Assembly (NCBI GenBank): GCA_016842045.1
Contig: JAEVEY010000155.1
Coordinates: forward strand, 1 to 52,136
Direction: 5' to 3'
DNA: 52,136 nucleotides
Origin: Candidatus Thermoflexus sinensis
GTDB lineage: Bacteria > Chloroflexota > Anaerolineae > Thermoflexales > Thermoflexaceae
Made by a program: the position numbers and the translations under genes. Positions 4,834-49,114 of the stretch are shown in pieces; position 1 is the stretch's first letter, and every line of letters begins with the position of its first letter. The notes under the pieces were generated by a model, which saw only the letters and a program-made list of their open reading frames with translations, ran no database searches and was not told where the DNA came from.

Positions 4834-5140
4834 AAGCGAAGCGAGTGCCTGTCACAGGCGTTCACAAGCAGGACGGGCACTCACGTGCCCTACTACGAAC
4901 GGAAAGCCCTGTTTGTAGTGCTTCGTCCAGATTTGTTTTGAGGATATAAGAGGGTGTGGGCCAATGGCCCCACCCCCCTTTCTCCCCCCTCCCCACGGCC
5001 CAAAGGGCCGTGGGGAGGGGGGATCAAAGAGATTTTGGGGGCGAGCCGGGCGCCGAAGGCGCCCGGCTCGCCCCCAAACCCCCAGGGGACCAAAATCTGG
5101 AGGGAGCAGTAGTCGGGCACTCCGCTTCGTGTCCGTTCCA
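4834..5140. repeat. Outer imperfect inverted repeat around element R1
   Basis: GGCACGAAGCG..GAGTGCC at the left (about 4839-4860) matches, inverted, GGGCACTCCGCTTCGTGTCC at 5115-5134. Element R1 lies between the arms, so R1 seems inserted into an older palindromic element. Boundaries approximate. Confidence 0.45.
4916..5111 (+). repeat. Element R1: palindromic MITE-like repeat, family R
   Basis: 196 bp. Ends: TAGTGCTTCGTCCAGATTTG at the left and, inverted, TAGTGCTCCCTCCAGATTT-like at the right (last bases CAGTA). Inside, in order: small hairpin GTGGGCC-AAT-GGCCCCAC, C-rich hairpin with apex GGCCC-AAA-GGGCC (about 4983-5022), GAGATTTT linker, then GC hairpin with apex GGCGCC-GAA-GGCGCC (5038-5076). 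No coding potential and no transposase. It lies between the B-box gene and recN. Confidence 0.8.
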
Positions 5141-5171
5141 GGCGTGCCCAGACAGGAAGATTCTATAAGCC

Positions 5172-5199
5172 ATTCGTGAATTCGTGTCCCATTCGTGAA
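5172..5199 (+). promoter_or_regulatory. Possible operator before recN: repeated ATTCGTG
   Basis: Three copies of ATTCGTG at 5172, 5180 and 5191; the first forms the inverted repeat ATTC-GT-GAAT. They lie 25-50 nt before the recN start, next to a -10-like TATAAG at 5164. RecN is usually damage-inducible, so a LexA-type or other repressor site is plausible; no known LexA consensus was matched. Confidence 0.35.
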
Positions 5200-5224
5200 A
5201 GGTCCCTGCTTACGAGAGGACAGG

Positions 5225-6994
5225 ATGCTGGTGGAGCTGCACGTTCGGGATTTCGCGATCATTGATGAGGTCACCCTCCGGCTGGAGCCCGGGTTGAACG
5301 TGCTCACGGGGGAAACCGGAGCCGGGAAATCGATCCTGGTGGACGCGGTGGCGGTGCTGGTGGGCGGTCGGGCGGATGTGGAGATGATCCGCGCGGGCGC
5401 GGAGCGAGCGTTGATCGAGGGCCTCTTTCAGCTGGACGAACCCACCCTCGCGCTGCTTTCCCCGATCCTAGACTCCTATGGCCTGTTCGATGAGGGCCCT
5501 CCCGGGGAGCTGGTGCTGAGCCGGGAGATCCGCCAGGGAGGCCGTCATGTCGCCCGGGTGAACGGCCGGCTGGTTCCCCTCCACGTCCTGAAGGAGATCG
5601 GACAGGTTCTCGTGGATATCCACGGGCAGACGGAGCATCTCTCGCTGCTGCGCGCCCGGGAGCAACTGGAGCTGTTGGATCGCTATGCCGGGGTGGGGGA
5701 GCTGCGGGCAGCGCTGGCGGAGCGGGTCGCCCGCTGGCGGGCCGTGCGCCGCGAGATCGAACAGCTGCGGCAGGACGAGCGGGAGAAGGCCCGTCGGGTG
5801 GACCTCCTCCGGTTCCAGATCGAGGAGATCGAGGCCGCCCGGCTGCGGGAGGGCGAGGAGGAGGCGCTGCTGCAGGAGCGCAACCGCCTGGCCAATGCCG
5901 AGCAACTCGCCCATCTCGCCGACGCCCTCTATCGAGCGCTGTATGAGGGAGAGGATGAGGCCCCCTCCGCCCTGGATCGCCTGAGCGAGGCCGCACGGGC
6001 CCTCCAGGCCCTGGTCCGGATCGATCCGGTCTTCCAGTCCTATGTGGAAACCATGGAAGGCCTGATCGCCCAGGTGGAGGACCTTGCCCGCACGGTCCGG
6101 GATTACCGGGAGGGGATCGAGTTCAATCCGCGGCGGCTGGCCCAGATCGAGGAACGCCTGGACCTCATCCGGCGCCTTCAGCGCAAATATGGGGATACGA
6201 TCTCCGAGATCCTGGCCTACGCGGAGCGGGCGAAGCGGGAGCTGGAGACCCTGCTCCACGCTGAGGAGCGGCTGGGGGAGCTGGAGGAGGAAGCCGAGCG
6301 GCTGCTGCGGGAGATCGGGGAGCTCGGAATGCAGCTCTCCCGTCGGCGCCAGGAGGCGGCCGAGCGCCTGGCCCGGGAGGTGGAGGCCCAGCTAACGGAT
6401 CTCCGGATGGCAGGGGCGCGGTTCACCGTCGCGCTGGAGCGGACGCCGGATGAGGAGGGGGCTTACGCCGATGGCGCCCGCTGGGCCTTCGACGCCACCG
6501 GCCTGGATCGGGTCACCTTCCTGATCGCTCCGAACATCGGAGAGGGGTTGCGCCCGCTGGCCCGCATCGCCTCAGGCGGGGAGACGTCGCGCCTCATGCT
6601 CGCTTTGAAGGTCGCCCTGGCCCAGGCGGACCCGGTGCCCACGCTGATCTTCGATGAGATCGATCAGGGGATCGGCGGCCGCGTGGGGGCCGTGGTGGGA
6701 GAGAAGCTCTGGCGCCTCGCCCGTCATCATCAGGTCCTCTGCGTCACCCATCTGCCGCAGTTAGCGGGCTTTGGGGACACGCATTTCAAGGTGGAGAAAC
6801 AGGTGATCGGCGAGCGCACGGTGGCCCGGGTGGTTCGGGTGGAAGGGGAGGAGCGCGTGGCGGAGCTTGCCCAGATGTTAGGCGGGACGGGCCGGGCGGC
6901 GGTGCAGAGCGCCCGGGAGATCCTGGAGTTTGTGGCGCGGGTGAAAAGCGGGGAAGCTTCCCGCGCGCCTTTCCGGCGCCGATCTGCTTCCTGA
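5225..6994 (+). CDS. recN: DNA repair protein RecN
   Basis: SMC-like ATPase acting early in double-strand break repair. 589 aa, the usual family length. Seen: Walker A GETGAGKS (residues 29-36), long coiled-coil arms rich in Glu/Arg (about 155-370), ABC signature IASGGETSRLMLA (about 446-458), Walker B LIFDEIDQGIGG (about 472-483) and the His-loop CVTHLPQLA. ATG 5225 is preceded by GAGAGGACAGG. It is the first gene after repeat R1, and ATTCGTG repeats sit in its upstream region. No other repair genes adjoin it. Confidence 0.97.
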   Translation: MLVELHVRDFAIIDEVTLRLEPGLNVLTGETGAGKSILVDAVAVLVGGRADVEMIRAGAERALIEGLFQLDEPTLALLSPILDSYGLFDEGPPGELVLSREIRQGGRHVARVNGRLVPLHVLKEIGQVLVDIHGQTEHLSLLRAREQLELLDRYAGVGELRAALAERVARWRAVRREIEQLRQDEREKARRVDLLRFQIEEIEAARLREGEEEALLQERNRLANAEQLAHLADALYRALYEGEDEAPSALDRLSEAARALQALVRIDPVFQSYVETMEGLIAQVEDLARTVRDYREGIEFNPRRLAQIEERLDLIRRLQRKYGDTISEILAYAERAKRELETLLHAEERLGELEEEAERLLREIGELGMQLSRRRQEAAERLAREVEAQLTDLRMAGARFTVALERTPDEEGAYADGARWAFDATGLDRVTFLIAPNIGEGLRPLARIASGGETSRLMLALKVALAQADPVPTLIFDEIDQGIGGRVGAVVGEKLWRLARHHQVLCVTHLPQLAGFGDTHFKVEKQVIGERTVARVVRVEGEERVAELAQMLGGTGRAAVQSAREILEFVARVKSGEASRAPFRRRSAS

Positions 6995-7377
6995 ACCCGA
7001 TAGGGGATTGAGCGCCACCGATTCCCATTCTGGCATGCGCTACCTGTTTTTCATTCGCGGCCCGAAGGGCCCGGGAAGAGCGTCCCCTCCATGGCGCCCG
7101 GGTCGAAGCCGACCGCACGAGCCTCCATTCCCCAATCAGCGACCTCCCCACCCGGTCGGACCCCTCGAAAGCGCCAGCCTGCCCGGTTGCGATCCCGGCG
7201 GTGCTTGCTCGGGTTCCGCGTTTGCCCCTCCCCACGCCGCGAAGCGGCGTGGGGAGGGAGTAAATAAAGCCCACAGCTGGCAACCGAGCAGCCTAAACCC
7301 CGAATCCCAGTCTTTCCCACTCCCCAGCGCCTGCCTCGTCTGGCAGCAAGGATTCCCACAGGGATGCAGGCCCGGAT
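6995..7377. other. Intergenic region without a recognisable gene
   Basis: 383 nt between recN and the zinc operon promoter. Holds one perfect hairpin (listed separately) and an Arg/Pro-rich chance reading frame that I do not accept. Nothing else recognised. Confidence 0.6.
7226..7258. repeat. C-rich perfect hairpin
   Basis: 15-bp arms CCCTCCCCACGCCGC around loop GAA. Related in style to the C-rich hairpin module of the R and T elements, but with no terminal repeats seen around it. No T-run, so a terminator role for recN is only possible. Confidence 0.6.
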
Positions 7378-7406
7378 TTGACAGGGGGGTCGTTTCCGGT
7401 TAAACT
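7378..7406 (+). promoter_or_regulatory. Promoter of the zinc-uptake operon
   Basis: Consensus -35 TTGACA (7378-7383), 17-nt spacer, -10 TAAACT (7401-7406). Predicted start near 7413. Confidence 0.75.
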
Positions 7407-7411
7407 GCTTT

Positions 7412-7426
7412 TGAAAAATTTTTTCA
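7412..7426. promoter_or_regulatory. Candidate Zur/Fur operator
   Basis: Perfect palindrome TGAAAAA-T-TTTTTCA that covers the predicted transcription start. Its place between promoter and a Fur-family gene suggests autoregulation. Inference from position and symmetry only. Confidence 0.5.
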
Positions 7427-7441
7427 TTAAGCGAGGATGCG

Positions 7442-7864
7442 GTGAGCTGGGAGGAGCGTTTGAGCCGGGCCGGGTGGCGGATCACCACGCCTCGCCGGGT
7501 GGTGATGCAGGTCCTGCAGCGGGCCGGTCGCCCCCTTTCCCCCCAGGAGATCTATATGCGAGGGCGCCGGATCCATCGCTCCCTGGGGCTGGTGAGCGTC
7601 TATCGGTCCCTGGAGGTGCTGGAGCGGGTTGGGCTGGTGCGCCGGGTTCATCAGGAGGATCGCTGCGACGGTTACATCCTGGCCTCGCCCGGGCATCACC
7701 ATATCCTGCTCTGCCGGCGCTGCGGACGCACAGTGGAATTCCCGGGGGCGGAGGATCTGAGCGGCCTCATCGCTCAGGTGGAGCAGCGCACAGGGTTCCA
7801 GGTGGAAGACCACCTGCTCGAGCTGATCGGCCTTTGTTCACCCTGTCAGAGGTCCAAATCTTAA
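7442..7864 (+). CDS. Fur-family transcriptional regulator, probably zinc-responsive (Zur)
   Basis: 140 aa. N-terminal winged helix (about 12-70, with TTPRRVVMQVL and VSVYRSLEVLERVGLV), then the metal-binding dimerisation domain. Two CxxC pairs, Cys91/Cys94 and Cys132/Cys135, form the structural zinc site; His85-87 and His70 are candidates for the sensing site. Fur, Zur and PerR cannot be separated by these motifs alone; Zur is inferred because a zinc-type ABC importer follows at once. GTG start at 7442 after GCGAGG. First gene of the operon, 23 nt before the binding protein gene. Confidence 0.88.
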   Translation: MSWEERLSRAGWRITTPRRVVMQVLQRAGRPLSPQEIYMRGRRIHRSLGLVSVYRSLEVLERVGLVRRVHQEDRCDGYILASPGHHHILLCRRCGRTVEFPGAEDLSGLIAQVEQRTGFQVEDHLLELIGLCSPCQRSKS

Positions 7865-7887
7865 CTCTTGCGAAGGAGGGTAGCACG

Positions 7888-8844
7888 ATGCATCGCTGGC
7901 TCTATCGAATCATAGTGGTTCTCCTTATGGGGATAACGGCCTGTCAGCCGTCCCCGGCGAAACCGGCGGGAGGGGAGCGACGGCTGCAGGTTGTGGCCAC
8001 AACCACAATCGTCGGCGATGTGGTGCGGCAGATCGGCGGCGAGGCCATCGACCTCACCGTCCTGTTGCGGCCGGGGGTGGATCCTCACACCTTCGAGCCC
8101 AGCCCGCAGGACGCCGCCCGGGTGGCTGGAGCCGATGTCCTCTTCGTCGCTGGCGCAGGCCTGGAGGCTTTCCTGGAGCCCCTGTTGCAGCAGGCGGGCA
8201 GGCGCGCCCGGCGGGTGGATCTATCGGAGGGACTTCCCCTCCTCCCCTTTGAGGCCGGGATGGAGGAGCATGAGCATGAGGATCATAAGCATGAAGAGGA
8301 AGCTCACTCCCACGGCCCGATGGATCCCCACGTGTGGCTGGATCCCCACAACGTGATCACGTGGACCTTTACCATCGAGGGGGCTCTGAGCCAGCTGGAT
8401 CCGGATCGGGCGGAGGTTTTCCGCCGGAACGCGGAGGCTTATCGGGCGGAGCTGAGGGCGCTGGACGGGTGGATCCGGTCGCAGGTCGCTTTGATCCCGC
8501 CGGACCGCCGCCTCCTGGTGACGGAGCACCAGGTCTTCGGTTACTTCGCCCACCGCTACGGGTTCGAGCAGGCTGGCGTCATCATGCCGGGGGTCACGAC
8601 CGCCGCCCAGCCCTCCGCGCAGGAGATCGCCCGGCTGGAGGAAACCATCCGCTCGAAGGGCATCCGGGCGATCTTCGTCAGCAGCACGGTGGACCCGGCG
8701 CTGGCCCGGCGGATCGCGGAGGATACCGGGGCGCGTTTGGTGCGGCTGTATGTGGATTCCCTCAGCGAGCCGGGGGGTGAGGCAGATTCCTATGTGAAGA
8801 TGATGCGTTATAACGTGCAGGCGATCGTGGAGGCGTTGCGGTAA
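7888..8844 (+). CDS. znuA: Zinc ABC transporter, substrate-binding lipoprotein (ZnuA-like)
   Basis: 318 aa of the cluster A-I (TroA/ZnuA) family. Signal with lipobox GITAC gives lipidation at Cys19, so it is anchored outside the membrane. Metal ligands expected in the family are visible: His of VDPHTFEPSP, His of PHVWLDPHN, His of TEHQVFGYF and the Asp near the C-terminus (YVDSLSEPGG). A His/Glu/Asp-rich loop at about 126-148 (EEHEHEDHKHEEEAHSHG) is typical of zinc rather than manganese binders. AAGGAGGG precedes ATG 7888. Likely delivers Zn2+ to the ATPase/permease pair downstream. Confidence 0.92.
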   Translation: MHRWLYRIIVVLLMGITACQPSPAKPAGGERRLQVVATTTIVGDVVRQIGGEAIDLTVLLRPGVDPHTFEPSPQDAARVAGADVLFVAGAGLEAFLEPLLQQAGRRARRVDLSEGLPLLPFEAGMEEHEHEDHKHEEEAHSHGPMDPHVWLDPHNVITWTFTIEGALSQLDPDRAEVFRRNAEAYRAELRALDGWIRSQVALIPPDRRLLVTEHQVFGYFAHRYGFEQAGVIMPGVTTAAQPSAQEIARLEETIRSKGIRAIFVSSTVDPALARRIAEDTGARLVRLYVDSLSEPGGEADSYVKMMRYNVQAIVEALR

Positions 8845-8895
8845 GGTCTCGTTGCCTTTTAGAGGGTCCCGGCGCGCTTCAGGAAGGAGGATCGG

Positions 8896-9729
8896 ATGGC
8901 GTTGATGAACTGGTGGCGGATGGTGACGTTGCGAGAGCGGGAGGCCCGGCATGCCCCGGGCGAGCCGCTGTTAGAGGTCTCCCGGGTTTCGATGCATTAC
9001 AACGGCGTGCTTGCTCTGGAGGAGATCTCCTTCACGGTGGAGCCCGGCGAGCGCATTGCCATTGTGGGGCCGAACGGGGCCGGCAAGAGCACATTGTTGA
9101 AAATCATCGCGGGCGTTTTGACGCCCACCGCCGGTTCCGTGCGGGTCTACGGCCATGGCCCTCAGGGCCATCTGTGCATCGCTTACATCCCCCAGCGGAA
9201 CCAGGTGGACTGGAATTTCCCCCTGACCGTTGCCGATGTGGTGATGATGGGGCGGGTGGGGAAGATGGGGCTTCTGCGTCACCCCGGCGCTCGGGATTGG
9301 GAGGTTGTTCGCCGTGCCCTGGAGCAGGTGGGTCTCACCGATCTGGCCCATCGGCCAATCCGCGCCCTGTCCGGAGGGCAACAGCAGCGCATGTTCATCG
9401 CCCGGGCCCTGGCCCAGGAAGCGGAGCTGCTGCTGATGGATGAGCCCTTCACCGGCCTGGACCTGCCCGCCCAAGAGGGGATCCTGGAGATTCTGGAGCG
9501 GTTGCGCCAGCAGGGGGTGACGGTTCTGGTGGCCACCCATGATCTGGATCAGGCGGCGGCTTACTTCGATCGGGTGCTGCTCCTGAACCGGCGTCTCATT
9601 GCCTTCGGAAGCCCGGAGGAAGTGTTCACGCCAGAGGCGCTGCGGGCGGCTTACGGCGGCCATCTGCGGCTGGTTTCGATCGGAGGCGAGCTGATCGCCG
9701 TTGGGGATACCTGCTGTGAGGGAGGTTGA
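8896..9729 (+). CDS. znuC: Zinc ABC transporter ATPase (ZnuC-like)
   Basis: 277 aa. Walker A GPNGAGKST (58-66), Q-loop in AYIPQRNQVDW, signature [17 protein letters not shown], Walker B LLLMDEP, and the switch His in VATHDLDQA. The YIPQR..VDWNFPLTV segment is typical of metal-type ATPases. The N-terminus carries about 25 extra residues before the ABC domain; ATG 8896 has AAGGAGGAT upstream. It ends 3 nt before the permease start. Energises import with the permease and binding lipoprotein of the same operon. Confidence 0.93.
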   Translation: MALMNWWRMVTLREREARHAPGEPLLEVSRVSMHYNGVLALEEISFTVEPGERIAIVGPNGAGKSTLLKIIAGVLTPTAGSVRVYGHGPQGHLCIAYIPQRNQVDWNFPLTVADVVMMGRVGKMGLLRHPGARDWEVVRRALEQVGLTDLAHRPIRALSGGQQQRMFIARALAQEAELLLMDEPFTGLDLPAQEGILEILERLRQQGVTVLVATHDLDQAAAYFDRVLLLNRRLIAFGSPEEVFTPEALRAAYGGHLRLVSIGGELIAVGDTCCEGG

Positions 9730-9732
9730 GCG

Positions 9733-10569
9733 GTGGGCGAGGTGTGGCGTCTCCTGCTGGATCCGCTTCAGCATATGTTTATGGTCCGGGGCCTGATCGC
9801 TGCCGTGATGGCCGGAGGGCTTTGCGCCCTGGTAGGGACCTATGTGGTGTTGCGGGGAATGGCGTTCTTCGGCGACGCCCTGGCCCACTCGATCCTGCCC
9901 GGGCTGGCCCTGGGGTATCTGCTCGGAGGCGGCTCCCGGGATGCGTTGTTCTGGTGGGGGCTGGGCACCGCGATCCTGGCCGCCCTGGGCATCGGGGCCC
10001 TCAGCCGCGGGCAGCAGTTGAAAGAAGACACCGCTATCGGGGTGCTGTTCGCCGGGGCCATGGCGCTGGGTGTGGTCATGATCTCCACCTCCCGCAGCTA
10101 TGCCGTGGATCTCGCCCATCTGCTCTTCGGGGATGTGCTGGGGGTTGGGGATCGGGATCTCCTTCGCCTGACGATCTTCGCCGGGATCGTGGCCGCGGCC
10201 GTGGTGTTCTTTTATAAAGAATTCCTGGTGATTTCCTTCGATCCAGTTCTGGCCATCACCCTGCGGCTGCCCACGCGGCTGTTCGAGAACCTCCTGCGGA
10301 TCCTGATCGCGATCACGGTGGTGGTGGCGCTCCAGACCGTGGGGGTGGCCCTGATGGTGGCGATGCTGGTGACCCCGGCGGCCACGGCCTATCTGCTGAC
10401 CCACCGCCTCCCGGCGATGATGGCCCTCTCGGTCCTCCTGGCGGCGCTCTCCGCCGTGGTGGGCCTCTACGCCTCGTATTACGCGGGCGTGGCCTCCGGG
10501 GCGGCCATCGTGCTCACCGCCACCGGGCTGTTTTTGATCGTTCGATGGATCCGGAGGACCCCCTCGTGA
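9733..10569 (+). CDS. znuB: Zinc ABC transporter permease (ZnuB-like)
   Basis: 278 aa, about eight membrane segments, ABC-3 family. Features of the family are seen: an early MAGGLCALVGTYVVLRGM segment, GDALAHSILPGLALG, and the C-terminal VGVALMVAMLVTPAATAYLL block. GTG start at 9733, 3 nt after the ATPase stop, with GGGAGGTTGAG as ribosome site inside the upstream gene. Last gene of the zinc operon; no terminator is obvious in the next 290 nt. Confidence 0.93.
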   Translation: MGEVWRLLLDPLQHMFMVRGLIAAVMAGGLCALVGTYVVLRGMAFFGDALAHSILPGLALGYLLGGGSRDALFWWGLGTAILAALGIGALSRGQQLKEDTAIGVLFAGAMALGVVMISTSRSYAVDLAHLLFGDVLGVGDRDLLRLTIFAGIVAAAVVFFYKEFLVISFDPVLAITLRLPTRLFENLLRILIAITVVVALQTVGVALMVAMLVTPAATAYLLTHRLPAMMALSVLLAALSAVVGLYASYYAGVASGAAIVLTATGLFLIVRWIRRTPS

Positions 10570-10858
10570 TCTGGGCCTGATGCCTCTTTCCTGACCTTGA
10601 TGCCCCCATATCGGTCCTCAGGCCATCGGGGCCGACCATGCTGGGGCAGCTCCGGGGTTGTCTCTCCCCGATGGCGCGGGACGTGGTTTCCTTCCCGGGG
10701 AGATCCCGCACCTGCCTCTGCGCATCGAATATCCCCGGCTCGGGTTGCGCGTTCAGGAAGCAGGCGAGGGGGCGTTATGTTATCATGCTGACCGGATACG
10801 GGGATGGTGTGATCTCCGCTTCTTTGCCAGACAGGCGCCAGGGAAGGTCGGGGCGACT
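10570..10858. other. Intergenic region with possible promoter
   Basis: 289 nt between the zinc operon and the two-component genes. A GTTATCAT -10-like box lies at 10779-10786; it resembles the boxes upstream of the B-box and DUF2085 genes. No gene or strong hairpin seen. Confidence 0.4.
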
Positions 10859-14553: not shown

Positions 14554-14762
14554 TAGTGCTCCCTCCAGATTTGATTTTTGGTTTTGGTCCCCTGGGGGAT
14601 TGGGGGCGAGCCGGGCGCCGAAGGCGCCCGGCTCGCCCCCCACATCTCTTTTATCCCCCCTCCCCACGGCCCTTTGGGCCGTGGGGAGGGGGGATAAAGG
14701 GGGGTGGGGCCATTGGCCCACACCCTCTTATATCCTCTCTGGACGAAGTGGACGAAGCAATA
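14554..14762 (-). repeat. Element R2: palindromic MITE-like repeat, family R
   Basis: 209 bp, reverse relative to R1. Starts TAGTGCTCCCTCCAGATTTG; the other end has a short duplication (GGACGAAG twice). Carries both large hairpins. In the same polarity as R1, the C-rich hairpin loop is AAA in both, but the GC hairpin loop is TTC here and GAA in R1, so that hairpin is inverted. It separates the sensor kinase from the haem protein gene and ends 23 nt before the latter's start. Confidence 0.8.
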
Positions 14763-18968: not shown

Positions 18969-19027
18969 TGTCAGGTTTCCGGCGCTGGATCGAAGGCCCG
19001 CAGTTCAGCGCCGGTATCCCGGCAATT

Positions 19028-19066
19028 CCCCCCTACCCGCGGCTTTTTGGGCTGCGGGGAGGGGGG
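19028..19066. repeat. C-rich hairpin between permease and ATPase genes
   Basis: Imperfect inverted repeat CCCCCCTACCCGCGGC / GCTGCGGGGAGGGGGG, a diverged copy of the C-rich hairpin module. It splits the MacAB-type operon. CAGCGCCGGT occurs as a direct repeat on both sides (about 19007 and 19190). Confidence 0.5.
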
Positions 19067-19233
19067 AAAGGGGAAGAAGCTTGCTCTGTTCCATGGAACT
19101 ACACGAATCCGTGTGGTATCTTCCATCCATGGAGCGCGCCGGGATAGCAGGTTCTGAGACATGCTTTGTCCAGAGTCCAGCAGAATTCACAGCGCCGGTT
19201 TGAAGCAATGCACTGCTCAAGCAGGAGGCATGG

Positions 19234-24981: not shown

Positions 24982-25134
24982 GGACTTTGGACAAACTCCT
25001 CACTTTCCTCAGGATGGGGGATTCAACTTCCCCCCTCCCCGCGGCCCAAAGGGCCGCGGGGAGGGGGGAGGGGCTTGCCTCGCGCAAGGGAAGGGCCTGA
25101 ACGAGAAATCAGACGGCCTGTTTGTCCAAAGTCC
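24982..25134 (+). repeat. Element T1: palindromic MITE-like repeat, family T
   Basis: 153 bp with perfect 15-bp terminal inverted repeats GGACTTTGGACAAAC / GTTTGTCCAAAGTCC. Holds one C-rich hairpin with apex GGCCC-AAA-GGGCC and a conserved right arm (GGGGCTTGCCTCGCGCAAGG and on). Ends 14 nt before tRNA-Arg. Second copy T2 at 48906. Confidence 0.85.
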
Positions 25135-25225: not shown

Positions 25226-25260
25226 TAGGGCCGGCGATAGGGCCGGCCCTATTTATTTTA
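25226..25260 (+). terminator. Terminator of tRNA-Arg
   Basis: TAGGGCCGGC / GCCGGCCCTA 10-bp perfect stem directly after CCA, then TTTATTTTA. Element S1 starts in the last two bases. Confidence 0.8.
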
Positions 25261-25350
25261 GGAGTTACGCAGCTGGTTTTCTCCTGGGGGTTTTTTGGGG
25301 GGTGGGGCCATTCTACCTCTTCTCGCGAGCCCCGAACTGCGCAACTCCTA
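25259..25350 (+). repeat. Element S1: MITE-like repeat, family S (no large hairpin)
   Basis: 92 bp. Ends TAGGAGTTACGCAGCTGG and, inverted, TAGGAGTTGCGCAGTTCGG. Inside: TTTTCTCCTGGGGG, GGGGGGTGGGGCCATT and the palindrome CTCGCGAG. It has no central hairpin, unlike S2. Confidence 0.8.
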
Positions 25351-31127: not shown

Positions 31128-31267
31128 GGGACGATTCCGCCATTCTCACACCACGCAATCCGGAGATGAGGGGTCACGTGAGTTTTCTCCTGGGGGCTGA
31201 TGAGGGTGAGATTCTTCCATCTACTCGCCAGAGATCCGAACCGAATGGGGCAGGGCGGAATCGTTAC
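31128..31267 (-). repeat. Element U3: MITE-like repeat, family U
   Basis: About 140 bp. Inverted ends ACGATTCCGCC (left, 31131) and GGCGGAATCGTTAC (right, 31254-31267). Interior shares ATTCGGTTCGG and GTTTTCTCCTGGGGGC with U1 but has no big hairpin. Lies directly behind the DUF2085 promoter. Confidence 0.7.
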
Positions 31268-31317: not shown

Positions 31318-31447
31318 TAGGAGTTACGCAGTTGGTTTTCTCCTGGGGGTTTTGGGGAGTCGCGCGCCTTCGGCGCGCGACTCCCCAAAAAATAGGGGGT
31401 GGGGCCATTCTACCTCTTCTCGCGAGCCCCGAACTGCGTAACTCCTA
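31318..31447 (+). repeat. Element S2: MITE-like repeat, family S (with hairpin)
   Basis: 130 bp. Same ends as S1 (TAGGAGTTACGCAG..., inverted at the right). Between the two conserved arms it has an extra hairpin GGGGAGTCGCGCGCC-TTC-GGCGCGCGACTCCCC (about 31355-31387) that S1 and S4 lack. Confidence 0.85.
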
Positions 31448-35915: not shown

Positions 35916-36077
35916 TGCTGCTCCTTCCAGATTTGATTTTCTTTGGTTTTGGTCCCCTGGGGATTTGGGGGCGAGCCGGGCGCTTCGGCGCCCGGCTCGC
36001 CCCCAAAATCTCGAGGGGGGTGGGGCCATTGGCCCACACTATCTCACATTCTCAAAACAAATCTGGATGAAGCACTA
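35916..36077 (-). repeat. Element R3: palindromic MITE-like repeat, family R (GC hairpin only)
   Basis: 162 bp, ends TGCTCCTTCCAGATTTG and, inverted, TAGTGCTTCATCCAGATTTG. Has the GC hairpin CGAGCCGGGCGC-TTCG-GCGCCCGGCTCG but lacks the C-rich hairpin of R1/R2. Upstream of the antiporter gene. Confidence 0.85.
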
Positions 36078-37327: not shown

Positions 37328-37375
37328 ACTCAACTGGCGGTCCCTGCTCTTGCTTCTTTCACTTTTTATGTGGAT

Positions 37376-37463
37376 CCCCCCTCCCCGCGGCCCAAAGGGC
37401 CGCAGGGAGGGGAGAAATATATTTGGGGTGGACGGGGTCGCCGAAGGCGACCCCGTCCACCCC
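37376..37463. repeat. Two adjacent hairpins next to R4
   Basis: C-rich hairpin with apex GGCCC-AAA-GGGCC (37376-37412, one mismatch) followed by GGGGTGGACGGGGTCGCC-GAA-GGCGACCCCGTCCACCCC (37425-37463). The second has the same CC-GAA-GG apex as the R hairpins but different arms. Confidence 0.75.
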
Positions 37464-37477
37464 CCAAAAAAACTGAA

Positions 37478-37636
37478 TAGTGCTCCCTCCAGATTTGATT
37501 TTTGGTTTTGGTCCCCTGGGGGTTTGGGGGCGAGCCGGGCGCTTCGGCGCCCGGCTCGCCCCCAAAATCTCGAGGGGGGTGGGGCCATTGGCCCACACCC
37601 TCTTATATCCTCAAAACAAATCTGGACGAAGCACTA
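37478..37636 (-). repeat. Element R4: palindromic MITE-like repeat, family R (GC hairpin only)
   Basis: 159 bp, ends TAGTGCTCCCTCCAGATTTG and, inverted, TAGTGCTTCGTCCAGATTTG. Nearly identical to R3 inside, with the same CGAGCCGGGCGC-TTCG hairpin. TA at both ends would fit insertion at TA. Stops about 60 nt before the promoter of the nucleotidyltransferase gene. Confidence 0.88.
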
Positions 37637-38745: not shown

Positions 38746-38910
38746 GGAAGTTGCGCGGTTAGCCTTCCCCCGGGGTTTGGGGCGCTGAGCCAGGCCCCTC
38801 GGCGCCGGACCCGGCCCCGAAACGGGAAAGGGGCCCCTCGACTCCCCCAAAAAAATGGGGGGTGGGGCCATTCTACCTCTTCTCGCGAGCCCCGAACTGC
38901 GTAACTCCTA
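38746..38910 (+). repeat. Element S3: degraded family S repeat
   Basis: Right half is a perfect S arm (GGGGTGGGGCCATTCTACC to TAACTCCTA at 38910). Left end GGAAGTTGCGCGGTTAGCC is a diverged copy. Interior is an eroded GC hairpin. Begins 3 nt after the nucleotidyltransferase stop. Confidence 0.65.
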
Positions 38911-38911: not shown

Positions 38912-39072
38912 ATCTGAGCGTTCCCGTGGGAGGTTGGGGGGGGCGAGCCGACGCCAAAGGTGCCCGGCTCGCCCCAGATCCCCACGTCCCGAAGATCCGT
39001 AGGGAGAGGGGATCCTGGGGGGTAGAGTTATCCGCTGGACCCGAACGGGATGATGACGGAAAAGCCCTGGAA
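38912..39072 (-). repeat. Element V2: repeat of family V
   Basis: About 160 bp, directly adjoining S3. Reverse strand shares GGCTTTTCCGTC, TTCGGGTCCAGCGGAT and a GGCGAGCCGGGC hairpin with V1. Boundaries approximate. Confidence 0.55.
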
Positions 39073-39077
39073 AAGGG

Positions 39078-39680: not shown

Positions 39681-39718
39681 CCTAACCTCCAGCCAGGCGC
39701 CCCTTTCTAATCCCGAGG

Positions 39719-39905
39719 GTAGCGACTCAGCCTGACCTCATTCGGTTCGGGGCTTTTGCGAAGAGATGGAAGGCCCCCCTGATCTTCCCTCCCCGCGACC
39801 CTCTGGGCCGTGGGGAGGGAGGTGAAGAATATTTGCCCCCAGAAGAAAACCTGCGGGAAATGCCCATATCCGTATGGCGTTGCCTGAGAATAGCGGAATC
39901 GTTAC
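39719..39905 (+). repeat. Element U1: MITE-like repeat, family U
   Basis: 187 bp. Ends GTAGCGACTCAGCC and, inverted, GTAACGATTCCGC. Interior: ATTCGGTTCGGGGCTTTTGCGA, a C-rich hairpin with apex ACCCTCTGGGCC, and AAGAAAACCTGCGG. Its right end GTTAC (39901-39905) contains the tdk stop codon. Confidence 0.7.
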
Positions 39906-40477
39906 TCTCGAGGGACCACATGACAGCGGCGGCAGCGAGCCTCGTAAGTTTCGCTTCCCCCTACCAGGATCACCGGATCATCATAGCGAGCGGGCCGCCC
40001 ATTGATAAGCCGCTGGGTCCGGGTGGCAGGAGCCCCGCATACCACACAGATCGCATGGAGCTTATCCACCTGCTCGGCCTGGGCCATGAGAAGCGGCATC
40101 GGCCCGAAGGGCTCGCCCCGGAAATCCATATCCAGGCCGGCCACAATCACGCGGATTCCCCGCTCCGCCAGTTCCTGGACGACATCGGCGATCTCCCAAT
40201 CAAAGAACTGAGCCTCATCGATCCCGACCACCGTGGTCCCGGGATGGAGGTGCTCAAGGATCGCCCGGGCATGGGGAACGGGAATGGCCTCGATGTCCAG
40301 GCCGTTGTGGGATCGAACCCGTTCGATCCCATATCGGGTATCGATGAGGGGTTTGAACACCTGAACCTGCTGGCGGGCGATCTGGGCGCGGCGGAGCCGG
40401 CGGATCAGCTCCTCGGTTTTGCCGCTGAACATGCAACCACAGATCACTTCCACCCAGCCTGTCCGCGTGGAGTCCAT
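39902..40477 (-). CDS. tdk: Thymidine kinase (type II)
   Basis: 191 aa. Phosphorylates thymidine in salvage. P-loop [25 protein letters not shown], lasso region and zinc-binding cysteines CVVCG and CRRCH are intact. ATG 40477 chosen for GGAGGGAGG; a long upstream extension reads through element S4 and is rejected. The stop codon lies within the terminal repeat of U1, so the C-terminus (VVPRE) may have been changed by the insertion. Confidence 0.95.
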
Positions 40478-40572: not shown

Positions 40573-40661
40573 TAGGAGTTACGCAGTTGGGGGCTCGCGA
40601 GAAGAGGTAGAATGGCCCCACCCCAAAAACCCCCAGGAGAAAACCAGCTGCGCAACTCCTA
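40573..40661 (-). repeat. Element S4: MITE-like repeat, family S (no large hairpin)
   Basis: 89 bp, reverse relative to S1. Ends TAGGAGTTACGCAGTTGG and, inverted, TAGGAGTTGCGCAGCTGG. Between tdk and rpmE. Confidence 0.85.
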
Positions 40662-41389: not shown

Positions 41390-41400
41390 GGTTGCCTCCT

Positions 41401-41838: not shown

Positions 41839-41841
41839 CCC

Positions 41842-41967: not shown

Positions 41968-42162
41968 CCTCGTTGAGGAGGCTTTTCCGTCCTCGTACCA
42001 TTCGGGTCCAGCGGATGGTCCCACCATCCTCCCCATGATCTTTCGCACCGTGGGGAGGCTGAAAAGGATGCTGGGGGCGAGCCGGGCGCTTTCGGCGCCT
42101 GGCTCACCCCCAAACCCCCATGAGAACAACGTATAAAAAAGCTTTGCCTCGTTGAGGAGGCT
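41968..42162 (+). repeat. Element V1 flanked by a 16-bp direct repeat
   Basis: CCTCGTTGAGGAGGCT occurs at 41968-41983 and 42147-42162. Between them: GGCTTTTCCGTC, TTCGGGTCCAGCGGAT and the hairpin GAGCCGGGCGC-TTTC-GGCGCCTGGCTC, shared with V2. The direct repeat could be a target duplication or element end. Confidence 0.6.
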
Positions 42163-42687: not shown

Positions 42688-42878
42688 CTTTACACTCCTT
42701 TCCCGGGTTCATCACGCCACAGTTGGAAGGGAAAACAACAGAGACCTTCGCCAGGGCCCAACCGGGCGAGAGGGGAGATGAAGTTCGTTTCCGATCTGGC
42801 CGGGCACCCATCGGAGGGCGCGCTTCCCGACGCGCCGCTAACGGCGGACCTCCACCCACCGGCCCCGAAGGGTCGCCC

Positions 42879-43886: not shown

Positions 43887-44146
43887 TTCCCCTCCTGAAC
43901 GGACAGCATAAAATTCATGCACCAGCCCTTCCTGGCCTTGTTGTGAATGATCCAGCCACATCGGGGGGAGGGCGGTGCCTCTTCTCCTTCCCTCCCCGGA
44001 GCTCGAAAGGCGGGACGAAGGCGATAGTGGATAGCATGAGAGCCGCTTTCAGCGGCCTGCGCCGCCTCGAAATCCGGGATATGGGCACCAGATGCTGGGG
44101 GTTCCCGATTGGGGAAGGGTCAGGCCGCCTCCCATCGATCCCTACT
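43887..44146. other. Divergent intergenic region
   Basis: Between the reverse peptidase and the forward LysM/M23 gene. A possible forward -10 TATGCT/TATACG lies at 44149-44160. No gene seen. Confidence 0.4.
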
Positions 44147-44186
44147 GTCTATGCTATACGATTGCGAAAATTTGGGAACTTTCAGA

Positions 44187-45689
44187 ATGTCCCTGTCATT
44201 TAGCCGCAAAAGCTCATGTCCTCCCCCTGGAATGCGATGGCCTCTTATAGGCCTCGCCGCATGGGGGATCATGGTCCTGATCGCCTGCGCTCGACCGGTG
44301 ATGGAGAGGCCGGTTCCCCCGACAGGGACCGCCGGGCCTCGGTCGGCCGTTCCGCTTTCGGTCCCCCGGACGCCTACCCCGGATCCGCCGCGAACCGGTG
44401 TGGATCCAGAACGGGAGCTTTACCTCGTGCAGGCCGGAGACACCCTGAGCGGCCTCGCCCAGCAATTCCAGACGACGGTTGATGCGATCCTGGCACTGAA
44501 TCCGGGGATCGATCCTCAGCGGCTCGCGGTTGGGCAGCCCCTGTGGATCCCGCTGGGGATTCGGGAGAAAGGCCCCGCATGGAAACTGATCCCGGATTCC
44601 GAGCTGGTTTACGGTCCGGCTTATCTGGATTTCTCGATCCCGGAGGCCATCCGCCGGTTCGGCGGGTATCTGAGCCGCTATCAGGAGACGATCGGTGGAC
44701 GGACGCTCAGCGGAGCCGAGATCGTGGAAGAGGTGGCGCGGAACCACAGTGTGGGCCCCCGGGTGCTGCTGGCCCTGCTGGAGATGCAGAGCGGATGGGT
44801 GCGGGGAGAGCCCGTGGATGAGCGCGCCCGGCTTTACCCGATGGGATGGGAGCGACCAGGCTATGAAGGGCTGTATCGGCAGCTGAACTGGGCCGCGGAT
44901 CGCCTGAACGATGGGTATTACGGCTTCAAGGGACGCCATATGTGGACCCTGCGTTTCGCCGATGGGCGGCGGATCCGCGTGGCGGATGGGCTCAACGCGG
45001 GGACGGTGGCGGTGCAGGCGTTCCTAACGGCGGTGCTTTCCCCGGAAGCCTGGGCCCAGGCGGTAGGCCCTTCCGGATTCCCGGCGGTCTACCGTGCCCT
45101 CTTCGGGGAACCCTTCCGCCCGGAGCCAGCGTTATCGATCCTGCCGGAGCCTGCCTGGCGGCTGCCCTGGGGGGATGGGGAGCTGTGGTATTTCACGGGC
45201 GGGCCGCATGGGGGATGGGGAAATGGGGCGGCGTGGGGGGCGCTGGATTTCGCGCCGCCGGATGTGGACGGATGCACGCCCTCCCGCTACTGGGCGCGGG
45301 CAGTGGCCGATGGCGTGGTGGCGCGCACCGGAGAGGGTCTGGTGGTTCTGGATACGGATGGAGACGGGCGGGAGGAGACCGGATGGGTGATGGTTTACCT
45401 TCACATCGCTGCGGAGGGGCGGATTCCACCCGGCGCCCGGGTCCGGGCGGGGGATCCGCTGGGGCATCCCTCCTGCGAGGGTGGGTTCGCGGACGCGGCC
45501 CATGTCCATCTGGCCCGCCGCCTGAACGGGGAGTGGGTCCCCATTGAATCCAGGCGTCCCTTCCGCCTGGGGGGATGGGAAGCCCTTCCCAGCCTTACGC
45601 TCTATGAGGGCGTGCTGGTTCGAGGAGAGGAGCGGAAGATCGCCTGCGCATGCAAAGACGAGCCCCGGAATGGAATCCCAGCCCCCTGA
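44187..45689 (+). CDS. LysM and M23-type peptidase (murein hydrolase-like) protein
   Basis: 500 aa. Hydrophobic signal/anchor (about 16-36; LIGLAAWGIMVLIACARP, a possible lipobox at LIAC), Pro/Thr linker, LysM (about 73-120; YLVQAGDTLSGLAQQFQTTV), a helical middle domain (about 135-300), and a C-terminal M23-like domain (about 340-460). In the M23 part the Asp of WGALDFAPP, YLHI and the HVH motif are visible, but the usual His four residues before that Asp is absent; His of GGPHGG may replace it. Probably cuts or binds peptidoglycan outside the cell. Start unsure: 44187 or 44232. Confidence 0.8.
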   Translation: MSLSFSRKSSCPPPGMRWPLIGLAAWGIMVLIACARPVMERPVPPTGTAGPRSAVPLSVPRTPTPDPPRTGVDPERELYLVQAGDTLSGLAQQFQTTVDAILALNPGIDPQRLAVGQPLWIPLGIREKGPAWKLIPDSELVYGPAYLDFSIPEAIRRFGGYLSRYQETIGGRTLSGAEIVEEVARNHSVGPRVLLALLEMQSGWVRGEPVDERARLYPMGWERPGYEGLYRQLNWAADRLNDGYYGFKGRHMWTLRFADGRRIRVADGLNAGTVAVQAFLTAVLSPEAWAQAVGPSGFPAVYRALFGEPFRPEPALSILPEPAWRLPWGDGELWYFTGGPHGGWGNGAAWGALDFAPPDVDGCTPSRYWARAVADGVVARTGEGLVVLDTDGDGREETGWVMVYLHIAAEGRIPPGARVRAGDPLGHPSCEGGFADAAHVHLARRLNGEWVPIESRRPFRLGGWEALPSLTLYEGVLVRGEERKIACACKDEPRNGIPAP

Positions 45690-45737
45690 TCCGGTTGGAG
45701 ACAAATCACCCCGGAGATGCCGTTTCTATCAGGATAG

Positions 45738-45755
45738 GACTTACGCAGATCTGCC
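45738..45755. repeat. Lone S-type end
   Basis: ATAGGACTTACGCAGAT resembles one S terminal repeat (TAGGAGTTACGCAG) with one change; no partner end found within 200 nt. Confidence 0.35.
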
Positions 45756-45804
45756 GATCCAGGACAGGCATCTGTCAGCAACTCATGGGGAGAAGGCTTG
45801 ACGA

Positions 45805-46524
45805 TCAGAGCACTTCCTGCACCAGCGGATTTTTCCTTCGAGCCAGCTCGCGAATCAGGTCCGCCACCTTTTTATATTCATCCGGGAAATCGAACTCCAG
45901 CAGCTGCAGCGCCTCGTCAAAGCGCCCAAGCTCTCTCAGTACTTCCGCTTTCTGAAGGCGTTCCACCGGATTTGTCTCATCCAGCAACTCAAGCAAACGT
46001 TCTAAATTCCTGAGCGCTTCGGGGGAACGCTGGAGGATGGTTGGGGCCCGTTCGGGATTGGAAAAGCGTAATGGGTCATTGCCGGCCCACCACGCACATA
46101 TTCTTAGATAGCGCTCCTGTTCTCTGTTATGGGCCATGCCATTCTGGATTGCCTCCAGGTATTCCATTTCTGTGAGCTCCCTCACCCGTTCGGCCGCCTT
46201 CCATTCAGGAGGGAACTTTTCCCATTCGCGTTTCAGCCTCGCTGCCTGGTCTGAAGGCATAAGTTCAGCAAGCCGTTCATTCAGGGCATCCGGTGAAACC
46301 AGCCAGGGTGGGATTTCCCCAACCACTTTCGCCTGTGAAATCCAGAAATAGCGCCCGCAGCCCCGGCACCTGGTGATGGCCGGGGACACGGGCAGCATCG
46401 GCGCGATCATTTTGCCATCCGTCCACCATTGAGCCCCGAAGGTGTTGCCTGAAATGAGCGTGCGAACGCGTGCAAGGGTTTTGCAGTGAGGGCATTCGAT
46501 AATCTGATCCGGGCCCGGTATCAT
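45805..46524 (-). CDS. Zinc-ribbon protein with helical (TPR-like) C-terminus
   Basis: 239 aa. Cys11/Cys14 (CPHC) and Cys53/Cys56 (CRGC) are split by a Trp-containing insert (GAQWWTDGK), suggesting one zinc ribbon. Residues 70-239 are mostly helical, with a TPR-like pair near the end (AEVLRELGRFDEALQLL). ATG 46524 chosen for GGGAGG at about 7 nt. Single gene, 725-nt gap behind it. Not recognised; could be a sensor or an immunity-type protein, but nothing supports one. Confidence 0.6.
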   Translation of the reverse strand: MIPGPDQIIECPHCKTLARVRTLISGNTFGAQWWTDGKMIAPMLPVSPAITRCRGCGRYFWISQAKVVGEIPPWLVSPDALNERLAELMPSDQAARLKREWEKFPPEWKAAERVRELTEMEYLEAIQNGMAHNREQERYLRICAWWAGNDPLRFSNPERAPTILQRSPEALRNLERLLELLDETNPVERLQKAEVLRELGRFDEALQLLEFDFPDEYKKVADLIRELARRKNPLVQEVL

Positions 46525-46830
46525 GCTTGGCCTCCCTGTCTCGTAAAGGGTGCTCATGGCGAGCGCTTTATCCCGGGGCTTTTGGAGGACGAGGCCGCCG
46601 AGGGCAGCTTTCCCCATCCCCTGAAAGCCCCTCACCGCAATTGCGCAACCCGTCTAATTGCAACCATCCCAATCGCTTTCATGCAGTCTGCAGCGTTCGC
46701 CTTCATTGATGGAGCGATCGAGCGCCTCTTCAGGGAGTATAGCGAACTGCAAATCCATCCACTATGCTACTTCAATTCTTCGGTTCGGCAAATCATAGGG
46801 TGAGGAGGCAGGGCTTTTCAAAGTTCTGAT
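46525..46830. other. Intergenic region, nothing recognised
   Basis: 306 nt upstream of the zinc-ribbon gene. CTGAAAGCCCCTCACCG here also occurs near 40685, suggesting eroded repeat DNA. No gene. Confidence 0.4.
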
Positions 46831-47001
46831 GTAACGACTCGGCCTGGTTATTCGGTTTGAAGCTTTCGTGAGAAGGCGGAAGGGTCCCTCCCCGCGGCCC
46901 GAAGGGCCGCGGGGAGGGGGAGAACACATCTTTTGAGGGCTGGGCCGGTGACCGAAGGCCCCCGGCCCAATCCTCAAAAACCCTAAATGGATGAAGCAGT
47001 A
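46831..47001 (+). repeat. Element U2/R5: chimeric repeat (U left end, R right end)
   Basis: 171 bp. Left GTAACGACTCGGCCTGG..TTCGGTTTG matches U1; right TGGATGAAGCAGTA matches the R end (TGGATGAAGCACTA in R3). Inside: C-rich hairpin with GGCCC-GAA-GGGCC apex and an imperfect CC-GAA-GG hairpin. Confidence 0.6.
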
Positions 47002-47208
47002 GCTTGCCAATATTAGAAAAGCCCTGGTGGAGGAGGCGGAAACGATTTCCTGATTCTAAGGGATTTTGGGATGACAGGCTCATCGAAGGCGGACCTGCCT
47101 GCCTTAAGACACGGGCAGGAAGAGCAGAGAGATGGGAAGTGCCCGGGAGGCTTCTCTGCTGAGGCTCCACTATGCAGGCCTGGTCGCATGCACGGCACGG
47201 GTTTGCCA

Positions 47209-47214
47209 TATAAT
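47209..47214 (+). promoter_or_regulatory. -10 box (TATAAT) of AlbA_2 gene
   Basis: Perfect TATAAT 36 nt before the start codon; no good -35. Confidence 0.55.
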
Positions 47215-47249
47215 GGGCATAGGCGTTTTCCGGTTCTGGGGGAGTTCGA

Positions 47250-48605
47250 ATGAAGGATGGTCCACGAAAGCCAGGCGTATTGCAGGCGCTTTTACGCGAC
47301 CCCGATCCTCAGGAGATCGCGGAGACGCTGGTAGCCTTCGCCAACACCGATGGCGGTGTCCTGGTGATCGGGGTGGATGCAGAGGGGAGAGCCCTCGGGG
47401 CGGATCCGGAGGAGGTGGAGGATGCCCTTCGGCAGGCCCTGCTCCGCTGCCGGCCGCCTGTCCAGACCCGATGGGAACAAAATGAGGTGGATGGAAGAAC
47501 CATTATCCTCCTGCACGTCCCTCGCAGCCCGGAGCTCCACAGCCTGGATGATGGACGGGTCCTGATCCGACGGGGCGCAGAGAACCGCCCGCTGGAAGGG
47601 CGGGAGATCCAGCAGCTGGCGGCGACCAAATCCATCGGGGACTATGAGGCGGAAATAGTCCCCGGGGCTACCCGTGCGGATCTGGATGAGGAGGTGATTC
47701 AGGAATACCTTGCCAAGCGGGAAGCCCGCCAGCGCCGACCAATAGCCAGGACGGTGGAGGAGCTCCTGGTGGAGATCGGGGCGTTGACCCCGGATGGATG
47801 CCCGACGGTGGCGGGGATCCTGCTGTTCGGAAAGCAGCCCCAGCGGTTCCTTCCCCAGAGCGGGGTGGTTTTTGTGAAATATCCCGGGACGACCCCGCAT
47901 GGCGAGGGAGGGTTGCCGGGATATGCGCGCCGGGAGGAGATCGGCGGCCCCCTGGCGCGGATCATCGAACAGGCCTGGAAGGTGGTGTGGGATGAGATGC
48001 AGGTGGGGGCCGTGGTGCGGGGCCTGGAGCGGGAGGAACGGCCGGAGTATCCTCCCTTCGCCGTGCGGGAGGCCATTGTGAACGCGGTTTGTCATCGGGA
48101 TTACCGGCTGCGGGGCCGCCGGATTGAGATCCGCAAATTCGCGGATCGCCTGGAGGTGAGCAGCCCGGGAGGCCTGCCGGGGCACATCACGCTGGATAAC
48201 ATTGTCGACGAGCATTACTCCCGCAACCCACGCATCGTCTCAGGGCTGTTTTACTGGGGCTACATTGAGGAGCTGGGTCTGGGGATCGATCGGATGATCG
48301 AGGAGATGATCCGGGCCGGCCATCCCCAGCCGAAATTCATCGCCCAGCCGTATTCCTTCACGGTGATCCTCTACAACCGGCAGGAACGCGCGCCCGTTCC
48401 GATGGGGGAGCCCCCGATGAATGAGCGCCAGCTGAAGGCGTTGCAGTATATCCGGGAACACGGGCGCATCACCAACCGGGAATATCAGCAGCTGTGCCCG
48501 GGGGTCTCCCCCGAGACCCTTCGGCTGGATCTGGCGGATCTGGTCCGGCGAGGGATCCTCCTGAAGATCGGGGAGAAACGCGGCACTTACTATATCCTGA
48601 AGTAG
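47250..48605 (+). CDS. AlbA_2/Schlafen-type putative DNA-binding protein with ATPase-like C-terminus
   Basis: 451 aa, COG2865 type. N-terminal AlbA_2 domain (about 15-125; LVAFANTDGGVLVIGVDAEG, VLIRRGAENRPL), central domain with REAIVNAVCHRDY (about 270-285) and HSP90-like ATP-binding type sequence FADRLEVSSPGGLPG, and a C-terminal winged helix (about 395-450; NERQLKALQYIREHGRITNREYQ). Such proteins are usually annotated as transcriptional regulators. ATG 47250 has GGGGGAG upstream. Sits alone between repeat-filled gaps; target unknown. Confidence 0.85.
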   Translation: MKDGPRKPGVLQALLRDPDPQEIAETLVAFANTDGGVLVIGVDAEGRALGADPEEVEDALRQALLRCRPPVQTRWEQNEVDGRTIILLHVPRSPELHSLDDGRVLIRRGAENRPLEGREIQQLAATKSIGDYEAEIVPGATRADLDEEVIQEYLAKREARQRRPIARTVEELLVEIGALTPDGCPTVAGILLFGKQPQRFLPQSGVVFVKYPGTTPHGEGGLPGYARREEIGGPLARIIEQAWKVVWDEMQVGAVVRGLEREERPEYPPFAVREAIVNAVCHRDYRLRGRRIEIRKFADRLEVSSPGGLPGHITLDNIVDEHYSRNPRIVSGLFYWGYIEELGLGIDRMIEEMIRAGHPQPKFIAQPYSFTVILYNRQERAPVPMGEPPMNERQLKALQYIREHGRITNREYQQLCPGVSPETLRLDLADLVRRGILLKIGEKRGTYYILK

Positions 48606-48905
48606 AAACTCGAACGTTCCGGCCCTCCGTCGTTGTCCAGGGGTTCGGGGGAGAGTGAACAGCGAAAGGTGGCCCGCCCATGCTCGAATCATTCGGGTAA
48701 CCTGTGGTGCGAGCTCCGGTTCCGAGCAGGGCGGAAGCGGATGATCCCCGCCCCACCCCTGAAAATGATTGGGCTCATGTCGGCTTTGGGGGAAGCAAGG
48801 CATCCATCCAGGCTTCTGACTGACGAACAACCGGATCGCTGGGTCTCGATCACAGGGCCATCATCCCCGGAATCCGGGAGGAGGCCCCTTCACCTCAGAG
48901 CCGCC
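48606..48905. other. Intergenic region, nothing recognised
   Basis: 300 nt after the AlbA_2 gene. No gene, promoter or hairpin that stands out. Confidence 0.4.
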
Positions 48906-49114
48906 GGACTTCAGACAAACTCCTCTCTTTCCTCAGGATGGGGGATTGGGGGCGGGTGGGGCCGCCGAAGGTGGCCCCACCCGCCCCCAAATTCTTCAAC
49001 TTCCCCCTCCCCGCGGCCCTTTGGGCCGCGGGGAGGGGGGAAGGGGGGAGGGGCTTGCCTCGCGCAAGGGAAGGGCCTGAACGAGAAATCAGACGGCCCG
49101 TTTGTCCAAAGTCC
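48906..49114 (+). repeat. Element T2: palindromic MITE-like repeat, family T (two hairpins)
   Basis: 209 bp. Ends GGACTTCAGACAAAC and, inverted, GGACTTTGGACAAAC. Compared with T1 it has an added GC hairpin (GGCGGGTGGGGCC..CC-GAA-GG, about 48948-48988) and the C-rich hairpin in opposite orientation (apex GGCCC-TTT-GGGCC). Right arm is nearly identical to T1. Confidence 0.85.

Follow-up and report, generated by a model that had tools for sequence, protein, structure and literature searches.

Mostly intergenic MITE-like families of a Thermoflexus genome carry one structured core beneath different ends

A 52,136-nucleotide stretch of DNA from the hot-spring bacterium Candidatus Thermoflexus sinensis, hereafter the window, contains short palindromic elements whose outer ends fall into several families (R, S, T, U and V) and whose interiors share the same blocks, which raises the question of how one interior came to lie beneath so many ends. 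A sequence-only reading of the window had answered it with a mosaic system in which terminal repeats and hairpin cores are exchanged. The genome that holds the window comprises 3.44 Mb in 212 contigs, and our sample consists of the window together with 100 stretches around matches (615,726 bases); because these stretches were chosen around matches, counts within the sample lean towards elements.

Genome-wide searches confirmed that the repeats are real and genome-wide, with matches to R, S, T and V across the genome rather than in the window alone. The R end, allowing up to 3 mismatches, occurs 103 times against 5 for a reversed control, and the exact S end, TAGGASTTACGCAGTT, 280 times against 0. 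A single R copy used as a query has at least 82 matches in the genome (40 of 356 candidates scored) and a single S copy at least 89 (40 of 396 candidates scored); a T query has 92 and a V query 69, many of which reach only one of the internal hairpins, hairpin C. Paired ends delimit 39 R, 73 S, 19 T, 17 V and 16 U elements in the sample, the V and U patterns being loose. At its gathering score, Rfam matched nothing in the window except two tRNAs. The literature covered, by titles and the starts of abstracts and mostly outside subscription journals, held no account of these elements or of their end sequences, and the available part of PMC8129789 does not mention transposons.

The core, of about 125 bp, consists of a hairpin (A), an AT-rich linker, a second hairpin (C) and a G-rich block. 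R elements measure about 109 bp without hairpins, 160 bp with A, 163 bp with C and 208 bp with both. The repeats that had been reported from the window are all there: four copies of R and four of S, one of these a half copy, two of T, three V-like and two U-like elements plus loose hairpins, about 15 in total. R copies lie at 4916..5111 (minus strand, both hairpins between a pair of terminal inverted repeats), 14554..14762 (plus, both hairpins, right end variant), 35916..36077 and 37478..37636 (both plus, hairpin A only). Hairpins C and A of the first occupy 4983..5023 and 5034..5078 (minus), and hairpin C of the second 14654..14694 (plus). S copies without hairpins are found at 25259..25350 (plus) and 40573..40661 (minus), one with hairpin A only at 31318..31447 (plus) and a right half at 38851..38910 (plus). 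The T copies are at 24982..25134 (plus, hairpin C only) and 48906..49114 (plus, both hairpins). A V-like copy without hairpins spans 31128..31267 (plus), a V element with hairpin C 39718..39906 (minus), and a V right part with hairpins C and A 46831..46976 (minus); the far end of the last, TGGATGAAGCAGTA, resembles an R end and makes it a possible chimera. U-like elements with both hairpins lie at 38913..39075 (plus) and 41977..42162 (minus), their boundaries approximate. A pair of C and A hairpins at 37375..37465 (minus) and a hairpin C at 19027..19068 (no strand assigned) are without recognised ends. The S copy at 40573..40661 adjoins the gene of a thymidine-kinase-like protein, whose nearest named relatives come from a Chloroflexota bin (93% identity), Thermoflexus sp. 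SKYB22 (89%), SKYG36 (72%) and 'Ca. Thermoflexus tengchongensis' (70%). The first R copy sits in a GTAGGGCACG-type repeat. A repeat with units GTAGTCGGGCACG / CGTGCCCTACTACGAACAGG occupies 4780-4915 and 5112-5150 of the window, is tandem at L098 and L100, and is the host of several R copies, inserted at TA.

The claim that such elements fill most of the longer intergenic gaps held: by rough gene calls from a crude ORF caller, which limit all gap and orientation counts given here, 8 of the 11 gaps of at least 300 bp hold a member (5 flagged by script, 3 by eye). As for the other three, the gap at 6995-7377 holds a C-like hairpin only and two are empty. That the elements occur only between genes is not shown: 116 of 164 copies lie between predicted ORFs, 35 inside them and 13 at stretch edges, at least some of the ORFs from this crude caller being spurious.

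Alignments indicate that the families, whose outer ends are unrelated, share a homologous core. With one representative per family, R 38-161 aligns with V2 54-179 over 126 bp (90%, E 2e-45), R with S1 over 127 bp (86%, E 8e-38) and R with T over 122 bp (78%, E 2e-19). The earlier observation that internal blocks recur in families with distinct ends is thereby borne out as homology beyond chance. The shared part is longer between S1 and V (160 bp at 84%) and reaches to about 15 bp from the S ends.

In a tree built from 35 cores (32 of them distinct; five V rows represent three loci; 2 of 29 inner branches well supported), T requires a single change (support 100) and so does R (82/74), V requires two and S three, and the well-supported branches force at least two core changes for S ends. 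On this weakly supported tree, cores mostly appear to travel with their own ends, and S ends lie on three core lineages. Four elements combine the ends of two families: L120 (S-left/R-right), L158 (S-left/U-right), L118 (R-left/T-right) and L172 (S-left/T-right within outer S-type ends). At L120, L158 and L172, three of these four that were checked, the genes on either side are neighbours in other members of the genus, where the gap between them is shorter; with such syntenic flanks these are not joins of distant contigs. A short-read assembly might disturb the palindromes, though the flanks are syntenic. In genome G002, the L120 locus holds an older, decayed core element. The chimeras are joined in the C/G block, and the simplest account would be that neighbouring elements fused through this shared block. 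Cores thus mostly track their ends, yet S ends on three lineages and four two-family elements are also found, and exchange therefore happens, rarely. This leaves the interpretation of the sequence-only reading partly supported and its mosaic view half right: the shared core, the separate coming and going of hairpins and the mixed ends stand, swapping as the main mode does not, and the constant pairing of one core with one pair of ends, which would speak against a mosaic, is nearly what T and R, with one change each, display.

The families are MITE-like, with terminal inverted repeats, target duplications and nested insertions. Their copies are short (84-216 bp) and noncoding, with paired ends. 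Direct repeats of at least 5 bp flank 48 of 71 S copies against 1.2 expected after shuffling, with a mode of 5; T copies have duplications in 14 of 19 cases against 0.9 expected, ends being allowed to shift by up to 3 bases. Duplications are weak for V (5 of 16) and U (2 of 16). R has ends that start with TA and a duplicated TA target, with no duplication in its flanks beyond TA. A TA target is a property of the IS630/Tc1 family, and that of R points to an enzyme of this type. When the flanks of 103 R, S, T and V copies were joined, 19 had a match across the junction. Five R copies have an ungapped empty counterpart in repeats elsewhere among the loci; TA is single in four of these counterparts, and the fifth has TG. 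The other R matches are gapped. The S copy at L087 has an ungapped empty counterpart within an R end (81%). Insertions are also nested, as in an R copy that lies within hairpin C of a V element.

As the earlier reading had noted, no mobilising enzyme with these ends is seen in the window. Its proposal of a transposase whose own ends match found no candidate in the own genome among the two Pfam families searched (it may be missing from the MAG). At L206 (C78 of the own genome), an S copy is interrupted after hairpin C by an inserted IS5-like element whose ORF, of 312 aa, is of DDE_Tnp_1 type; the ends of this gene do not match, which rejects it as the cognate transposase. A DDE_3 fragment at a contig end (L207) was likewise rejected for R, being below the cut-off and without an R end beside it. 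Among end pairs 600-3500 bp apart, the sampled stretches contain a single S pair and a single V pair, both lacking a duplication. The closed sister genome G005 has 1.3-1.65 kb elements with S ends, with exact 5-bp duplications in 5 of the 6 places read, and the one that was translated holds a single long gene of TnpB type; G005 has 12 TnpB-type genes, and none is intact in the own genome. Genes of this type, which belongs to an RNA-guided nuclease family, lie in elements with terminal inverted repeats, bounded by S ends in both genomes, at L227 1699-3000, L228 1294-2596, L229 1195-2497 and L230 1698-2999 in G005 and at L240 1397-2799 in G001; the target duplications of these elements are exact and 5 bp long, and those read contain no further long gene. 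TnpB would accordingly be cargo of an element with terminal inverted repeats, not of an IS605-type one. A lead for the S mobiliser is the IS701 family: a 104-aa IS701-like piece (NF049921, E 1.8e-25) lies immediately after one S-type end in G005. This piece differs from a clear member in being a single decayed copy with a score of 90 under a cut-off of 250, no Pfam match and no second end.

Motifs on both sides served to orient 129 of the 131 paired R, S and T elements, whose hairpin states could then be scored. The numbers of copies with none, A, C and both are 14, 12, 7 and 5 for R; 8, 16, 2 and 17 for S1; 2, 2, 21 and 1 for S2; 0, 0, 0 and 3 for S3; and 4, 0, 6 and 9 for T. R copies without A, compared with those that have it, are missing one TTTGGGG repeat and the intervening stretch, the pattern expected of slippage, and copies with C and without A have three different junctions. 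The absence of hairpins in R thus looks more like deletion at this short direct repeat than like swapping. Both loop orientations are found with respect to the element (A loop: GAA 26, TTC 32; C loop: A-type 27, T-type 40), in unequal combinations, GAA occurring with AAA once and TTC with TTT ten times. Matched changes on both sides of the arms number 103 in hairpin C against 19.9 expected if independent (142 copies, families mixed) and 140 in R-type A arms against 42.3 expected (69 copies, families mixed). One-sided changes are also frequent, 223 in C, where they exceed the 103 matched, and 61 in R-type A (families mixed). Single-strand folding, by programs that ignore triplexes, was much better than in shuffled sequences, with z -11.9 for an R copy folded as DNA and z -14.2 for an S copy folded as RNA. 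In our reading, the hairpins are unstable palindromes, which are lost, flipped and partly corrected from arm to arm.

The block of G residues common to R and S, judged from its letters, is the mirror and thus candidate third-strand partner of hairpin C, a relation that the earlier reading overlooked. The purine arm of hairpin C, GGGGAGGGGGG, is followed by a short spacer (often ATAAA or AGAAA) and then by the mirror GGGGGGTGGGG or GGGGGGAGGGG; in the window, proposed third strands lie at 4968..4978 (GGGGGGTGGGG, minus, mirroring the purine arm of hairpin C) and 14699..14709 (plus) in the first two R copies and at 49043..49053 (GGGGGGAGGGG, plus) in the T copy at 48906..49114. Among 139 C hairpins with enough flank (of 144 found), 74 have a mirror third strand with at most 1 mismatch on one side and none of the 139 has one on the other side, against 0.8% for shuffled flanks, and 65 have no good third strand. 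The base that faces the A of the arm, which was left free in this test, is T in 55 cases, A in 15, C in 3 and G in 0. The pattern CCCCTCCCC-N9-24-GGGGAGGGG-N3-14-GGGGWGGGG occurs 151 times in this genome and 0 times reversed; it is present in 55 of 396 genomes of the class, where its reverse has 5 matches in 3 genomes.

This layout is that of the class II purine intrastrand triplex (TM/PIT) motif, into which the core would be predicted to fold. The published motif is 5'-CCCTCNCCC-N3-6-GGGNGAGGG-N3-GGGNGAGGG (Holder et al. 2015, PMC4666352). As in TM_ECO/PIT, according to the available text of that paper, a C-rich arm is followed by a G-rich arm containing A and by another tract rich in G that places T or A opposite the A, all three of which are found here, and the motifs are intergenic, multicopy and at deletion-prone loci. 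Unlike them, the core has a longer first loop of about 13-19 nt with its own 6-7-bp stem, beyond the 1-6 nt limit of the published search, a second hairpin precedes the motif, and the motif lies within transposable elements (PMC4666352). The same text reports that TM_ECO formed a triplex in vitro, which was not seen in vivo, that its loci are variable, and that no connection to mobile elements was found (PMC4666352).

Related arrangements extend beyond the genus. In G016, from another family, S-type ends enclose a related core (132 bp at 73% to R). G323 and G228, of one family, and G036, of another, have hairpin C and a third strand with a hairpin 12-13 nt upstream in 7 of 7 measurable loci, its arms of 17-25 bp (two with mismatches) unrelated in sequence and matched by 0 of 100 shuffles each; as some loci among these genomes are near-copies, they represent fewer than 7 independent cases. 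One of 5 measurable places in G266 and one place in G106 have a similar, imperfect upstream hairpin. No hairpin A stands beside C in G369, G101, G114 and the other 4 of 5 measurable places in G266; loci in G003, G007 and G016 do not match the strict pattern and are unscored, and 6 places lie too near a contig end. The same order with unrelated hairpin sequences thus means that the shape would be older than the sequence or arose more than once. Around triplex motifs at 20 loci of other families no terminal repeats with a duplication were found, so that the link between core and mobile ends outside the genus rests on the one G016 copy. The exact S end occurs in 39 of 298 genomes of the class, and in other Anaerolineae families S-type ends bound elements of 83-160 bp with quite different interiors (L209, L214, L218, L220, L221, L223, L225, L235, L236 and others).

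These far loci bring up the possibility that hairpin A, linker, hairpin C and mirror third strand form a selected cruciform or triplex DNA structure that has a role in the cell or in transposition, is carried by any available ends and is conserved in shape, not sequence, across Anaerolineae families. The constant order and spacing in G323, G228 and G036 and the occurrence of the pattern in 55 of 396 class genomes would suit such a structure. We nonetheless hold it as doubtful, if tenable, because the far copies are without terminal repeats bearing duplications, hairpin A is missing from G369, G101, G114 and most of G266, and Thermoflexus copies often lose hairpins.

The core could also be a functional transcription terminator, with hairpin A and a U-rich tail and C as a further block, selected as such and spread by transposon ends. 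Hairpin A is indeed followed by an AT-rich linker, with terminator-like flags at 5035-5077 and, in the loose pair, 37425-37463 of the window; in G323 and G228 the letters after it are TTATTTTTT or TATTTTTTTT, and SPRITE repeats of the pneumococcus are described as terminator-like (PMC3049150). At L284-L288 and L292 in these two genomes, the A hairpin is preceded by another C-rich hairpin with TTTTTTT or TTTTTTTT after it, so that the plus strand there reads like a row of terminators. Against a terminator, gaps with a member are tandem, divergent and convergent in 60, 22 and 15 cases and those without in 94, 37 and 29, no placement bias by these rough gene calls; in tandem gaps 35 members are co-directional and 25 opposite (p 0.25). 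Many copies are without A, and TM/PIT motifs had no terminator activity in the available account (PMC4666352). We regard this explanation as unlikely. Since there is no bias of placement or orientation, we consider a tolerated structure with local interference in replication and recombination more likely than a selected terminator, selection for shape being a less probable but tenable alternative.

That these are REP/REPIN-like palindromes moved by RAYT in single-strand transposition, without true terminal repeats, is highly improbable: GC-rich palindromes are numerous between genes, as such a system would have them, but the elements have long terminal inverted repeats with target duplications, which for S already largely refute it, and hairpin-less copies look as mobile as the others.

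We therefore favour, with a probability of about 0.7, MITE-like families with an inherited structured core, each probably moved in trans by its own transposase, in which the core is unstable and new end pairs are rare. Several short non-autonomous families, each with its own terminal inverted repeats, would have inherited one core common to all, and the observed repeats and duplications suggest a separate enzyme for each, inserting R at TA and producing duplications of mostly 5-7 bp for S and mostly 6-8 bp for T. On one strand, the sequence would allow the G block to fold back on C in G.GC triads with T.AT or A.AT. Such a core, when single-stranded, may hinder polymerases; slippage at its base would delete hairpins, and template switching between arms would flip loops and copy changes from arm to arm. 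Recombination in the shared C/G block may at times fuse neighbouring elements into new end pairs, and new end families would arise rarely and then spread as simple copies. Against this reading speak the absence of a transposase with these ends from the two Pfam families searched, the weak duplications of V and U, the weakly supported core tree, the one-sided arm changes in C that exceed the matched ones, and the published motif, whose triplex was not seen in vivo. Many R and S copies are without C and 65 of 139 C hairpins without a good third strand, so neither is needed for an element to be present. We lean towards the core as a passenger structure that is tolerated, with arms whose match is maintained chiefly in the DNA itself, and these observations suggest that the spread of the elements preserves DNA shape in addition to sequence.

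Known repeats offer partial parallels, as far as the consulted portions of their reviews extend. Streptococcus BOX elements are also composite, with different ends around one core: in S. suis, boxA/boxC and boxE/boxF ends enclose the same boxB modules (PMC3049150). They differ in that boxB is tandem and variable in number, whereas here two distinct hairpins are present or absent (PMC3049150). Neisseria Correia/NEMIS elements likewise have terminal inverted repeats, and their 107- and 155-bp forms differ by a 50-bp internal block; unlike the present families, Correia has one end family and, in the text available, no reported mirror third strand (PMC2229807). R resembles RUP, a MITE of IS630-Spn1 of about 107 bp with a TA target and terminal repeats, from which it differs in its hairpin pair and in that the enzyme of RUP is known (PMC2229807).

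Many bacteria have multiple copies of intrastrand-triplex motifs, for which no route of spreading is known, and the elements described here, with their terminal inverted repeats and duplications, give one. A triplex motif inside mobile elements provides a testable link to local instability in the form of hairpin loss, loop inversion and chimeras. Our results suggest that MITE families may be founded when an old structured core acquires new ends, and that the arms of a palindrome can remain matched despite the turnover of their sequence. If the core is indeed a selected, portable cruciform/triplex module, this would explain how intrastrand-triplex motifs become multicopy in bacteria.
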